Below, piece by piece: positions 1,234 to 11,238 of a stretch of DNA of 63,519 nt. The position numbers and the translations under genes are program-made. Source of the stretch: a virus; the IMG/VR virus record IMGVR_UViG_3300022602_003808, positions 1-63,519 of that record. One strand, given 5' to 3'. Every line of letters starts with the position of its first letter. The first letter of the stretch is position 1. The notes below the pieces were generated by a model. The model saw only the letters and a list, made by a program, of their open reading frames with translations, made no database searches and was not told where the DNA came from.

Positions 1234-1776
1234 TTATATAAGTTTTCTAAGAATAGCAATAGAAAAGTCAAAAGCATTATTAGCTTCTTCAGCTAAATCT
1301 GGTGTTGCTGCTTCTCTAATTTTTAAAATTAGACCTCTTACATCATCAAATCTAAACCATTTAGCACCGCCAGGTACTTTATTTTTAAGTGTTTGACCAC
1401 CAAATAAATCCCCCATATGTCTAACATAAACGTGTGACATTACCTTTTTAGGGTCGGCGAGCTCGTTTAAATAGTTTACATATGTAATGGTTTCAGGTAA
1501 AAGAGGAAAAGTACTAATTGATAATTCGTCTTCTAGTTCTTTTCTATCTTCTTTAATTCTAGCTGAACGCTCGATACCTGGAAAGTCTTTAAGCGTACCT
1601 AAACTATTAGCTTTGTTTTCAAGTGCTTCATACAGTGCATCCATTTGCACTAAATAGTTTAAATACTGTTCTTTAGTAACTGTTTTATTAAACACAGCAT
1701 CCAAAAATGGAAGCTTATCGGCAATATCGTGCTTTGGTTGTGTTAATTCTCTTAATGTCATAACCTTATTTAACAA
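1234..1776 (-). CDS. ho: Biliverdin-producing heme oxygenase
   Basis: A 180-residue alpha-helical protein of the heme oxygenase family, which opens heme to biliverdin, iron and CO using O2 and electrons from ferredoxin or another reductase. The proximal-heme-ligand region is visible near residue 16 (TQPKHDIAD, His16). The distal helix signature YVRHMGDLFGGQ (about residues 117-128) corresponds to the Y-R-LGDLSGGQ motif of HO-1 and keeps the catalytic Asp and the glycines. Length is slightly short for the family. It overlaps the 3' end of the upstream halogenase-like gene by 11 bp, implying coupled translation. Marine T4-like cyanophages are known to carry heme oxygenase. No bilin reductase is seen here; a ferredoxin lies at 34081. 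An internal Met6 is an alternative start. Confidence 0.85.
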   Translation of the reverse strand: MLNKVMTLRELTQPKHDIADKLPFLDAVFNKTVTKEQYLNYLVQMDALYEALENKANSLGTLKDFPGIERSARIKEDRKELEDELSISTFPLLPETITYVNYLNELADPKKVMSHVYVRHMGDLFGGQTLKNKVPGGAKWFRFDDVRGLILKIREAATPDLAEEANNAFDFSIAILRKLI

Positions 1777-3004
1777 TAAACTCTTTTAAATCAATTTTCC
1801 AGCCATTTATATAGTCACTCATTATAGTTTCACCGTGAGTCCAATAAGTTAATATTTTACCTTCTTTTTCACATAATTTAGCATAATTAACAAACGAGCC
1901 AGAAGCTTTTAAGCTTTCTACTGCTTTGAGTCTTGTTTGTATCCAATACTCGCTTTGAATTTTGTTAGGGCTAGCATAATGTAAGGCGATTAAATCTAAC
2001 ATTTGTGTTATATTGTATGAGTATCTTTCATTAAAATCAAGAGTTACATCAGCAAAGTTTCTTTTACCAGCCAAGCATTCCATTACTATAGGTAGTATAT
2101 TAGTCAAATAAGTACAGTAAAAGTGTAATGGCATAGACATAGCAGGCTCAAAAAAATGTAATCTATTACCCATATATAAAATTCTATTGTCTATAGCTTT
2201 TTTCCTGTAATATTGTTTCCAGTTTAATCTTCTTAAAACAGAGGCGTCTATATTTTTTAGTTCTGAAAAATGTTCAATTGCTTCTTTATCTGTAGTAATA
2301 TTATTATTATAAAGATACCCCCAAGTTTTTCTATGTTGTAGCGGTATACCAAACATCCAACCATTTTTATGTATATGAGCAGAGGTATACGTTTCATTAT
2401 ATGTTTTATATTCAGGATTTAAAATAACACTATTAACTGCAGCAAAATCTACTGTATTGTATGTACCGCTATTTAATTCTTCTGTAGAAGGGGTACCACG
2501 ACAGTCAATTAAAAAATCGTACACATATGCGTTGTTTTGACTTTTTAAAGTAACTTTATTTTTATCTTGCGATATATTAATAATATTATCTTTTATAACA
2601 TTAAAATTAGAAAACTTTTTAACAAGTTCATTTAAAACATAAAAACTAAATGTTTCGCTATTAAAATGTAAACCGTTATGAAAATGACGGATTATAAAAT
2701 TATTATCATTTGCGGGTTCCCAAAAATAACGCGCACCCCATTTAACAGTGCCATTGATTTTAGGAAGGTCTTGTATTATACAAAAATCCAGCACTTCAAA
2801 CAATGCTTTGTATACAGCAATAGAAGAGCTTTCTCCAACTTGAATAGTCGGGGTGTTTGGATCGTATATGCAATCTATTGTAAGATCAGAATTAGCTATT
2901 AACAGGCTTTTGCGTTTTTTTAGAACGTTAAGATGGCTGTATAAGTCTAATAAAGCAATAGAACTTGCTGTACCGGCACCTAATACACATATTTTTACAC
3001 TCAT
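1766..3004 (-). CDS. Flavin-dependent halogenase-family protein, divergent active site
   Basis: A 412-residue protein of the tryptophan-halogenase family. An FAD-binding GAGTAS motif lies at residues 9-14, VGESSS at 56-61, and a lysine in the position of the halogenase catalytic Lys at 88 (TVKWGARYFW). The later GW-x-x-x-IPL segment stands for the family W-x-W-x-I-P motif but lacks the second Trp. Where the family has PLE-S/A-T with the catalytic Glu, this protein reads EPAMSMPLH, so that Glu seems lost. It may be an altered halogenase, a flavin hydroxylase/oxidase, or inactive. It follows the larger paralogue at 3071-4588 and overlaps the heme oxygenase, so the three are probably co-transcribed. 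Confidence 0.75.
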   Translation of the reverse strand: MSVKICVLGAGTASSIALLDLYSHLNVLKKRKSLLIANSDLTIDCIYDPNTPTIQVGESSSIAVYKALFEVLDFCIIQDLPKINGTVKWGARYFWEPANDNNFIIRHFHNGLHFNSETFSFYVLNELVKKFSNFNVIKDNIINISQDKNKVTLKSQNNAYVYDFLIDCRGTPSTEELNSGTYNTVDFAAVNSVILNPEYKTYNETYTSAHIHKNGWMFGIPLQHRKTWGYLYNNNITTDKEAIEHFSELKNIDASVLRRLNWKQYYRKKAIDNRILYMGNRLHFFEPAMSMPLHFYCTYLTNILPIVMECLAGKRNFADVTLDFNERYSYNITQMLDLIALHYASPNKIQSEYWIQTRLKAVESLKASGSFVNYAKLCEKEGKILTYWTHGETIMSDYINGWKIDLKEFIVK

Positions 3005-3070
3005 AATTATATATAATTATGCTCAGCATTAGATTTATCTAAGAAATCCAAATTTATGGGTAATTTATTT

Positions 3071-4588
3071 TTACGACACCGGACACAGATTACCAGGGGT
3101 AGTAATCTTTACACTACCATCTAAAACACTGCTTAAAAATTTGCTATGCCTTACAGTATATTGTTTACGTGCAGCTTCTTTAAGTTGCGCTAATTGTTCA
3201 GATAGTGCCCGGGCTTCATCATACCTATTTCTTAAAATTAAAATATCTTTAATTGCTTGTTTATTAAATTTACCTAACCCGTAGGATATTGGTGTAAAAT
3301 TAGTATATGTAAACATTACTTCTTCAGGAAAATTATATTTTGTAGTGTAAGAGCAGCTAAGCTTTTCTTCTAAGTCTTTTACTTTTTGAGGTGTGGTGTT
3401 GGTCATATACTCCCAAAACTTTGAATCTGTTCTACCAGTGGTATAACAAAATCTTATATAAAGGTATATATTTTCTATTACATCGTTTTGCTCTCGATTG
3501 TATTTGCTGCGTTCAAACTCTAATAATTGAAAATTGTATATTCTATAAAGTGCAAATAATTGAGTTATTGTATGATGTATATTAGTAGCTTCTAAGGGTT
3601 CAGCAAAACTGCTTGCTAAACCTACTACGACGCAATTACCGACCCATTGTTTTTCCCAATAACCACTTTCAAATTTTATAATTTTATCTTTATTAGTGGG
3701 TAATCTGTTATAATTTTTTTGCGTAAGTTTTGTAAAATCTTCAAACGCTTCTTCATCTGTTGCAAAATGAGATGAATAAACATACCCAGTACCATATCTA
3801 GTCTGCAAAGGTACCTGCAGTGCCCAGCCGTGTGTAGTAGCTTCTGCAACGCTATAACAGGGTAAATTTTTATCTATACCATTTAATGGTAAGGGGCTAG
3901 GTATAAATCTATTTACAGGCAATTCGTTGCTTTTGTTTATCCACCTATTAGGTAGTTTTTTCATTAATACAGAATCTAAGCCAGTCGCATCAATATAAAG
4001 ATCTGCAGATAAATTACCGTTTTTTTCTAAAACTAGATTGGTAATTTTATCTGCATTAACAATTATATTCAATACTTTATCATCTAGTATTTTAATTTTA
4101 GTTTTTGCTTTTTCTAGAACATAATTATTAAAAGCAAGAACATCAAAGTGTAATGCAAATGCTTGAGTATTAATGTCAGGTAACATATTGTTCTCCATAT
4201 ACCAAGGAGAATACATAACATCTAAGTCATATCGATCGTTAATAATATCATATGCTGCAGCTAAATTTTCATAAGTAGGAGCAACTCTAGATGCTACGTC
4301 TAAGTGATTAAACGAATGCCAGTGATGCTTACCGTTGTTCAGCCAATTTTTAAATTTTATACCAAGTTTTATAGTAGCATTACAATGTTTAATTAATTCA
4401 ATAGTTGTAATACCCACTTCTCTTAAAAATTGATGTATTTTAGGTGTTAAGCTTTCTCCTACACCAATACTGGGTTTGCTATGATCAAAGATCAGAACAA
4501 TCTCTGCAGCTGCACCGTAATGAGTATTAGCTAGCGCGGCCGCCATAATGCCAGCTGTTCCTCCACCAACCACAATAATTCGTTTCAT
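3071..4588 (-). CDS. Flavin-dependent tryptophan halogenase-like protein
   Basis: A 505-residue protein of typical length for flavin-dependent halogenases, which use FADH2, O2 and halide to make HOX that is passed to a lysine. Visible are the FAD-binding GGGTAG (8-13), GVGES (42-46), the predicted catalytic Lys74 in ATIKLGIKFKNW, the GWALQVPLQ segment (254-262) in place of W-x-W-x-I-P, and AEPLEATNIHH with the predicted catalytic Glu. The second Trp of W-x-W-x-I-P is replaced by Leu, a departure that could reflect a non-tryptophan substrate. Upstream on the same strand is a TATAAT-like box and then the tmRNA. A cyanophage halogenase, VirX1, is an established precedent. No flavin reductase is seen in the window. 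Confidence 0.85.
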   Translation of the reverse strand: MKRIIVVGGGTAGIMAAALANTHYGAAAEIVLIFDHSKPSIGVGESLTPKIHQFLREVGITTIELIKHCNATIKLGIKFKNWLNNGKHHWHSFNHLDVASRVAPTYENLAAAYDIINDRYDLDVMYSPWYMENNMLPDINTQAFALHFDVLAFNNYVLEKAKTKIKILDDKVLNIIVNADKITNLVLEKNGNLSADLYIDATGLDSVLMKKLPNRWINKSNELPVNRFIPSPLPLNGIDKNLPCYSVAEATTHGWALQVPLQTRYGTGYVYSSHFATDEEAFEDFTKLTQKNYNRLPTNKDKIIKFESGYWEKQWVGNCVVVGLASSFAEPLEATNIHHTITQLFALYRIYNFQLLEFERSKYNREQNDVIENIYLYIRFCYTTGRTDSKFWEYMTNTTPQKVKDLEEKLSCSYTTKYNFPEEVMFTYTNFTPISYGLGKFNKQAIKDILILRNRYDEARALSEQLAQLKEAARKQYTVRHSKFLSSVLDGSVKITTPGNLCPVS

Positions 4589-4740
4589 ATAAGATATTAT
4601 ACTATAAGTTTATAAAAAGGCAATAAATTGTAACGGCTATAGGTTGCAAGCTCGAGTGCCAATTCGTTGATACCGTGAGCAGAAAGGTGAAAAAAGCTCA
4701 CATCCTTGATCCCTATAACGTCACCTTAACAGCCGTAAAA

Positions 4741-5121
4741 TGGTGGACCTGCCGGGTACTGCCCCCGGGTGTTCCGTAACGTTCTTATCAGTTTCTACAA
4801 GCTTAGCACTATTAATAAAATGTATATCCATAGTGCTGATATACAGGTTGTTTGGTAGTGTTCCTGCTATTCTACTACCATTGAATAGTCAGTCTCGCTG
4901 AATGACAGTTATAATATATAGCGAGAATCTATACTACAACCGATCGCTGATTAAGCAGCGAGTGCGAAGCTTTCGCTTGTATTGAATGAATCCATTACAG
5001 AAGCGACTGCGTTCTTGAGGCTATTGATAATGCCGTTTGTTTTTGTAGTAATTTATAAAGGATTTACTAATCCTGCTTGCTTCTAATACATCTGCCACAG
5101 AGTCGAATCTGGTACAGGCCC
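4741..5121 (-). ncRNA. ssrA: Phage-encoded tmRNA (one-piece)
   Basis: A 381-nt tmRNA. The 5' end GGGCCUG pairs with 3' CAGGUCC followed by ACCA, giving a 7-bp acceptor stem with a G3-U70 wobble, the alanyl-tRNA synthetase identity element; the CCA is encoded. The 5' region contains AGAUUCGAC, matching the conserved GGAUUCGAC of bacterial tmRNA. A pseudoknot-1-like hairpin AGGATT-AGTA-AATCCT follows. AGUC-GCU precedes the tag frame, and CUAAGCUUGUAG near the 3' side matches the conserved CUAAGC-UGUAG. The T-arm is CCGGG-GGCAGUA-CCCGG, with a loop that lacks the usual UUCRA. Length is close to the 363 nt of E. coli. It rescues stalled ribosomes with SmpB; no smpB is seen here. Confidence 0.93.
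4951..5004 (-). other. tmRNA tag-peptide reading frame
   Basis: Starting at the GCU after the AGUC element, the frame runs 17 codons to UAA and reads ASVMDSFNTSESFALAA. With the charged alanine, the full tag would be one residue longer. The ALAA end is the classical ClpXP-type degradation signal. The encoded tag is longer than the 10 codons of E. coli. The exact resume codon is inferred by analogy with the E. coli AGUC-GCA context. Confidence 0.85.
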
Positions 5122-5165
5122 ATTAAAAAGTGTCAAATAACAATAAGTAATATAATATATTTACT

Positions 5166-5579
5166 ATGAATAGCAACTTAAAAGTGTTGGCAGAACAGTA
5201 TCAATTGATAATGGAAAAACGTGTTCAGCCTGAACCAGAAACAGAAGAAGCACTTGAACAGTTCTTAGCTAAAAGAGCTGCTGGTGCTGCTAAAATCGCT
5301 CATAGTTCAAAAGAAAAGGGTGGTTTTGCTACTTTAACAGCTATTCACTTTGCAGCTAAAGCTAAACCTTATGCAGAGTGTGAAAAAATGGAAAAAGCGT
5401 CTGATAAGGATTGTGATAAAGCTAATGCTCATTACAAAAAAATGGCAGAAAAAGTTTATGCTAAATTAGCAGATTTAGATAAATTATCTCAAAAAGAGTT
5501 TCAGGCTCTTATGGGTGAGCTAGAAGTTTGGGGCGAGGTTTATATTCGCGCTACAAAACCAAACAGTCTTAAGATTTAA
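5166..5579 (+). CDS. Hypothetical protein, possible capsid-targeted internal protein
   Basis: A 137-residue soluble, helix-rich protein of unrecognised family, the only plus-strand gene in the first 33 kb. Its N-terminus (MNSNLKVLAEQYQLIMEK) is amphipathic and contains LAE and IME, matching the (L/I)-x-E consensus of T4-type prohead protease sites seen in capsid-targeting peptides. The rest is rich in Ala and Lys with a cluster of charged residues around 75-110. Its 3' end overlaps the end of the convergent glycosyltransferase gene by 11 bp. It lies beside the tmRNA and reads divergently from it, so the 44-bp gap probably holds promoters for both. Function unknown. Confidence 0.65.
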   Translation: MNSNLKVLAEQYQLIMEKRVQPEPETEEALEQFLAKRAAGAAKIAHSSKEKGGFATLTAIHFAAKAKPYAECEKMEKASDKDCDKANAHYKKMAEKVYAKLADLDKLSQKEFQALMGELEVWGEVYIRATKPNSLKI

Positions 5580-10512: not shown

Positions 10513-11238
10513 TTATTTAGTATCTCGCTCCGCGGAAGCTACAAAGTCATAAAATTCTTTACGAGTTTGTGGTTCGTTCATAAAATCCCCGGATAACTTA
10601 GAAGTGATCATCGCACAACCGTGATGCTTTACACCACGATGGCAAGCACAGGTATGAGCGCATTTAAGAATAACCGCTACACCTTGATTACCGGTACAGA
10701 GTTGATCAATTGCTTTATGTATCTGAACAGTTAAGCCTTCTTGAATTTGAGGGCGGCGAGCGTAATGCTCTACAATACGATTAAGCTTAGATAGACCAAT
10801 AACTTGACCGTTTTTATCTGGTAAATAAGCTACGTGAGCAACACCAGTAAAAGCTAAATGGTGATGAGAGCACATAGACACTACAGGTATGTTCATTTGA
10901 CTAACAATACCATCATAACCGTCTGATGGGAATGTAGTAATCTTTGGTGGGCCTTCATAACAGCCTTTAATAAGATCACATACATATGCCTTAGCTACAC
11001 GACGTGGTGTATCAGCACTATTGACGTCATTACGCCAGTCAATGCGTAGAGCATCTAAAAAGGTTGAATACGCCTCAGTTGCCTTATCGATAATTGCTTT
11101 CCTATCTTCTTCTGTAGTAATCATACTACTATTGGCAGTAGGAAGGGTTGGGTGTTTAATTTCGTTTAACATATTAAATGATTTCACAGACTTAAATCTT
11201 TCGCCCGTGGTATAACTCTGATTTGTTGTTGATTCCAT
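10513..11238 (-). CDS. folE: GTP cyclohydrolase I
   Basis: A 241-residue FolE. It converts GTP to dihydroneopterin triphosphate, the first step of both folate and 7-deazaguanine synthesis. Zinc and active-site signatures are clear: SMCSHHHLAF (about 119-128), GLSKLNRIVEHYARRPQ, QE-L, and KCAHTCACHRG toward the C-terminus with the second zinc cysteine. The N-terminus is longer than the minimal catalytic core. Given queD, queE, queC and queF in this window, its job here is most likely preQ0 supply. It overlaps the upstream small gene by 47 bp. Confidence 0.95.
   Translation of the reverse strand: MESTTNQSYTTGERFKSVKSFNMLNEIKHPTLPTANSSMITTEEDRKAIIDKATEAYSTFLDALRIDWRNDVNSADTPRRVAKAYVCDLIKGCYEGPPKITTFPSDGYDGIVSQMNIPVVSMCSHHHLAFTGVAHVAYLPDKNGQVIGLSKLNRIVEHYARRPQIQEGLTVQIHKAIDQLCTGNQGVAVILKCAHTCACHRGVKHHGCAMITSKLSGDFMNEPQTRKEFYDFVASAERDTK

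Follow-up and report, generated by a model that had tools for sequence, protein, structure and literature searches.

tmRNA genes in one-piece and two-piece form are already established in phages (PMC9004378). One survey reported them in 402 of 18,146 phage genomes (~2%), and 53 of the 133 unique structures are two-piece (PMC9004378); the first-pass annotation of the locus described here called phage tmRNAs rare, which is fair, though the class was already known. The Melnitz methylophage and the pelagimyophages are aquatic myophages of the T4 kind that carry their own ssrA with a partly alphaproteobacterial flavor, and the Melnitz gene is permuted, two-piece, and accompanied by a predicted glutamine riboswitch (PMC9004378). 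Lytic mycobacteriophages also carry tmRNA, and in cluster C (for example LordLeafolot) the gene of a lytic myovirus lies beside tRNA genes (PMC13014143). Theta ribozymes are HDV-like ribozymes found next to phage tRNAs (PMC10879173). The DNA analyzed here, referred to as the window, is a 63,519-nucleotide IMG/VR virus record (IMGVR_UViG_3300022602_003808) from a freshwater T4-like phage. It resembles both groups of phages, but its tmRNA is one-piece and is followed by an Atu_At1-type RNA instead of the Melnitz arrangement, and its likeness to the cluster C phages, which infect a different host phylum, lies in a lytic myovirus having a tmRNA near tRNA genes.

The window encodes a complete one-piece tmRNA (ssrA) of 381 nt at 5121..4741. 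The strand, unspecified in the first-pass annotation, is minus. A covariance search of an 801-base stretch matched RF00023 over its full length (model positions 1–374 of 374) with 61.5 bits, above the gathering score of 47, and an E value of 1.6e-23, and the match has exactly the ends 5121 and 4741 that had been proposed. The tmRNA was absent from the Rfam listing of the whole window, which was made with fast filters. ARAGORN, the other program named in the first-pass annotation, reported no tmRNA in the window and missed the gene, though the covariance model finds it; it also reported zero tmRNAs in related viral contigs, even for copies with a canonical UUCAAAU loop. Membership in RF00023 is indicated by a score over the gathering cutoff, a G3-U70 pair and CCA end, a tag frame with a stop codon, and covarying pseudoknots. 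The T-loop is GGCAGUA instead of UUCRANY, a sequence that is common but not strictly defining. The window gene shares with the standard bacterial tmRNA the gene order, acceptor stem, P2, four pseudoknots, tag, and CUAAGC..UGUAG element; it differs in being phage-borne, in a tag of 17–18 codons instead of the usual 10, in its GGCAGUA T-loop, and in being unseen by ARAGORN. A permuted alphaproteobacterial tmRNA was considered and rejected: the gene order is standard, RF01849 gave partial matches of 25–28 bits against 50, and RF04321 gave 14–17 bits against 47. Unlike the two-piece RF01849 gene, the window gene is unpermuted and holds the tag between the 5′ and 3′ acceptor strands of a single gene. 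Searches of isolate phages and plasmids for the same tmRNA gave no meaningful match.

All of the hallmarks named in the first-pass annotation are present on the minus strand. The 5′ acceptor strand GGGCCUG (5115..5121) places G3 opposite U70, and the acceptor pairs are invariant in 10 of 10 copies of the gene, with one copy lacking a letter at the first pair; G3-U70 is a G-U pair in all ten. The 3′ acceptor strand CAGGUCC, identified by sequence and pair counts, is followed by A-CCA (4741..4751), with the CCA encoded at 4741–4743. The D-loop motif GAUUCGAC (5102..5109) is invariant in the kin alignment (A1). The loop helix of pseudoknot 1 (5047..5073) is AGUA/UACU in the window, and AUUG/CAAU and GUUA/UAAC in kin, so that three of its four pairs change on both sides. 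The tag frame ASVMDSFNTSESFALAA plus UAA (4951..5004) has 17 codons, and its resume codon GCU is preceded by GCAGUC, which contains the AGUC resume context. Pseudoknots 2, 3, and 4 (4806..4941) and the 3′ strand of P2 (4773..4802; GCUUGU..CUGAUA..GUUACGGA) were placed by hand-named helices and pair counts. The CUAAGC-UUGUAG element is likewise present. The T-arm CCGGG-GGCAGUA-CCCGG (4752..4768) is of the alphaproteobacterial type and appears to be exchanged in kin. Upstream of the gene is a weak σ70-like promoter motif, TTGCTA-16-TATATT (5149..5176, minus strand), with 9 of 12 matches. This motif is near background, with four sites in the region compared to 2.6 expected, and it is seen again in several kin.

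Kin of the window gene were collected by pattern scans of viral contigs from uncultivated phages, and ten distinct complete tmRNAs were aligned. The structure was named by hand and consists of 86 pairs in the acceptor stem, three P2 segments, four H-type pseudoknots, and the T-stem. Paired letters occupy 98.7% of the 859 cells, a figure that is favored by the structure having been read partly from one aligned sequence; slid controls are 32–47% paired. Double changes, which this circumstance does not favor, number 24 cells compared to 7.0 ± 2.0 in shuffles. Compensatory changes occur in P2, pseudoknots 1, 2, and 4, and the T-stem, whereas pseudoknot 3 is nearly invariant. These data show selection on the RNA structure and support a functional RNA. 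Together with the full-length RF00023 match, the covariation bears out the original call of a one-piece tmRNA. The same compensatory evolution argues against the gene being a functionless passenger, a host ssrA acquired through imprecise excision or kept as an attachment site. ssrA genes are often used by integrating elements, which counts in favor of such an origin. The authors of the Melnitz study weigh a route of this kind for their phage (PMC9004378). The window yielded no tyrosine integrase and carries T4-like replication and virion genes, and a passenger origin is extremely unlikely.

None of the ten distinct copies has an interrupted tag frame; the frames span 17–18 codons, and the tags end in LAA, LAAA, or LVAA. 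Apart from the T-arm, no region is less conserved than the tag, which has a mean pairwise identity of 0.80 and two main alleles of its inner part, MDSFNT or KESLSF. The window tag was described at the outset as unusually long, and its 17 codons do exceed the most frequent length of 10 amino acids among known tmRNAs (PMC11915505). The variability and the two alleles count in favor of the long inner tag being a phage-specific degron, as the first-pass annotation suggested, that redirects products to a protease or adaptor of the phage's choosing. The window tag ends in an ordinary ALAA, however, and the partly annotated genes revealed no phage adaptor that would bind it, a weak point against a degron; this role is unlikely. 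The open frame also bears on whether the RNA is a decoy that blocks host trans-translation by tying up SmpB or EF-Tu while tagging nothing useful. A tagless tmRNA-like RNA of phage DS6A inhibits endogenous tmRNA when expressed in Escherichia coli (PMC11915505), and the atypical T-loop of the window tmRNA is consistent with a decoy. A decoy needs no tag, yet the frame is open in ten divergent copies, and the mRNA-like domain and four pseudoknots, needless for a decoy, are intact. We consider a decoy very unlikely.

The carrier was proposed to be a tailed phage, and the gene content of the window agrees. The T4-type families detected are gp43, gp32, gp41, gp45, gp46, gp20, and gp23, and the products include DNA polymerase (gp43), single-strand binding protein, a DnaB-like helicase, a processivity factor, an SbcC-like nuclease subunit, the portal, and the major head protein. 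The window gp43 is at most ~32% identical to the best isolates listed, and therefore the phage belongs to a deep uncultivated lineage. Three kin contigs (56–141 kb) encode gp43 proteins that are ~80% identical; two of them hold complete tmRNAs, and the third, G071, carries the tmRNA of locus L101. A gp23 search of the kin contigs was empty and is uninformative. A search for SmpB gave matches in 10 control genomes and none in the eight viral records covered, the window among them, so the tmRNA should work with the SmpB of its host. Because the window is a fragment, such absences carry limited weight. A heme oxygenase and two tryptophan-halogenase-like proteins are encoded consecutively beside the tmRNA (1234–4588, minus strand), and a GTP cyclohydrolase I homologue (10513–11238, minus strand) may be connected with folate or modified bases. 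A second, distant phage lineage is represented by a 175 kb viral contig (L004) with a one-piece tmRNA of 89.2 bits, a GGCAGUA T-loop, and a tag that was read by eye as DFSRKATADRIAA.

The reading that we favor, with a probability of roughly 85%, is a working phage tmRNA that uses the host alanyl-tRNA synthetase, EF-Tu, and SmpB for ribosome rescue and tagging. We infer its charging, SmpB use, timing, and benefit as follows. A host-type promoter would drive its transcription at the head of a small stable-RNA cluster, and the RNA would be trimmed at the GGG and CCA ends. Host alanyl-tRNA synthetase would charge it by recognizing G3-U70 and A73, and with host SmpB and EF-Tu it would enter ribosomes stalled on broken mRNA. 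Alanine and the 17-residue tag would be added, the ribosome would be freed at the UAA codon, and the ALAA end would mark the product for ClpXP or other host proteases. Ribosomes might thereby stay usable during the destruction of host mRNA, a role already suggested in the first-pass annotation, or when the host tmRNA is limiting or attacked. Hosts normally own a tmRNA, which counts against the need for a phage copy. The non-canonical GGCAGUA T-loop, the ARAGORN rejection, and the near-background promoter were likewise counted against a working tmRNA.

The T-arm sets these tmRNAs apart from one another. The first-pass annotation mentioned neither the atypical T-arm of the window, nor its three versions in kin, nor the second RNA described below. 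The backbones of the kin tmRNAs are ~93% identical, yet there are three versions of the T-arm. CCGGG-GGCAGUA-CCCGG occurs in the window, L002, L003, L005, L006, and L096; AGGGG-UGCAACU-CCCCU occurs in L032, L065, L069, L094, L098, L101, and L109; and CCGGG-UUCAAAU-CCCGG occurs in L036 and L075. Outside the tag and T-arm, the window and L032 share 97.3% identity, whereas 8 of the 17 T-arm positions differ. L096, which is 92.3% identical to the window, has the same T-arm as the window. The type of T-arm does not track backbone relatedness, tag allele, or the downstream cassette, which has three kinds of neighbors. Because the variants were recovered from many separate samples, a single assembly error is unlikely. 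From the sequence comparison, the T-arm appears to have been exchanged as a cassette by recombination. Point mutation under selection could instead have produced the three arms, each of which is merely 17 nt long; they have in common a GGG..CCC stem core and C-A at loop positions 3–4. That route would have to account for five to eight simultaneous differences with no intermediates among ten distinct copies, and for arms that disagree with backbone relatedness, tag allele, and downstream cassette, and it is rather unlikely. A donor for the cassette was sought among the neighboring phage tRNAs of the kin loci, and none of the three arms occurred there outside tmRNAs. The window T-arm, ACCCGGGGGC(A/g)GUACCCGGC, is nearly identical to the RF01849 consensus ACCCGGGGGCgGUACCCGGC. 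The GGCAGUA type of T-loop also occurs in the tmRNAs of some Saccharibacteria; their tmRNAs (L010–L030) have the T-arm CCGGGGGCAGUACCCGGCAG..CCACCA in common with the window, a comparison of the T-arm alone that is no proof of descent. Some entries of a Patescibacteria T-loop table were left out of the comparison, having been taken from the wrong strand. Assignment of a host or donor from the T-arm was rejected, because the same arm is found in Saccharibacteria and in the alphaproteobacterial consensus. T-arm exchange in tmRNAs did not turn up in a limited full-text literature search, a result that argues weakly for novelty.

The tmRNA CCA end directly abuts a second RNA, an Atu_At1-type (RF02496) pseudoknotted RNA at 4740..4633 on the minus strand, which matches 108 of 108 model positions with 64.1 bits, above the gathering score of 60. 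In kin, the slot after CCA holds an Atu_At1 RNA, a tRNA-Glu, or another folded element, and the order in L032 is tmRNA, Atu_At1, tRNA-Tyr, tRNA-Trp, and tRNA-Glu. This row of RNAs suggests a processed stable-RNA cluster. In L003, L005, L006, and L098 an element (AGATCCAAATAGAAGTGATAG...) takes the place of Atu_At1 just after CCA; it is more stable than shuffled sequences (z −3.5) and may be a further RNA. The Atu_At1 motif CAACGAANTGGCANNCGAGC was found in 64 viral contigs, six of which look like chance matches by eye. An alignment of 41 distinct copies, three of them from rhizobial plasmids, supports a four-helix structure in which a 5′ bulge pairs into a hairpin loop as a 7-bp pseudoknot. 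Pairing fills 83.0% of the cells compared to 60.7% in shuffles, double changes number 278 compared to 94, and the covariation score is 0.61 compared to 0.22. The covarying pseudoknot is missing from the printed Rfam structure; the window-type copies add it to RF02496 and extend the family to phage contigs beyond Rhizobiales. The single-sequence fold of the window copy is unremarkable (z −0.78), by a method that cannot form a pseudoknot. Four query sequences had no meaningful counterpart among 50,697 isolate phages. A T4 late (TATAAATA) or σ70-like promoter motif often precedes the Atu_At1 copies (window 4633–4740, L031–L093). On two Agrobacterium vitis plasmids (L007 and L008) Atu_At1 adjoins genes of toxin-antitoxin type (VapC; AbiEii), with their stops facing the RNA. 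Identification of the Atu_At1 RNA as a theta ribozyme was considered and not adopted, since the loop closed by its third helix pairs with a 5′ strand, a helix order unlike the HDV order; the extra outer helix on the 5′ side also counts against a theta ribozyme.

A broader proposal joins the two features. The T-arm would be a module replaced under diversifying selection to suit the EF-Tu, SmpB, or tRNA-targeting nucleases found in different hosts, and a processed stable-RNA cassette containing the Atu_At1-type RNA would join the same takeover of translation. We regard this combination as speculative and distinctly unlikely.

The basic finding is a further member of the known class of phage tmRNAs. 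What sets the window tmRNA apart as less ordinary than others of that class is its exchangeable T-arm and the RNA next to its CCA end. ARAGORN missed every copy tested, and hence surveys based on it will undercount phage tmRNAs of this kind. The Atu_At1 RNA is strongly structured and widespread in phages. Near-identical tmRNAs with three different T-arms constitute a natural test set for the role of the T-arm in trans-translation.
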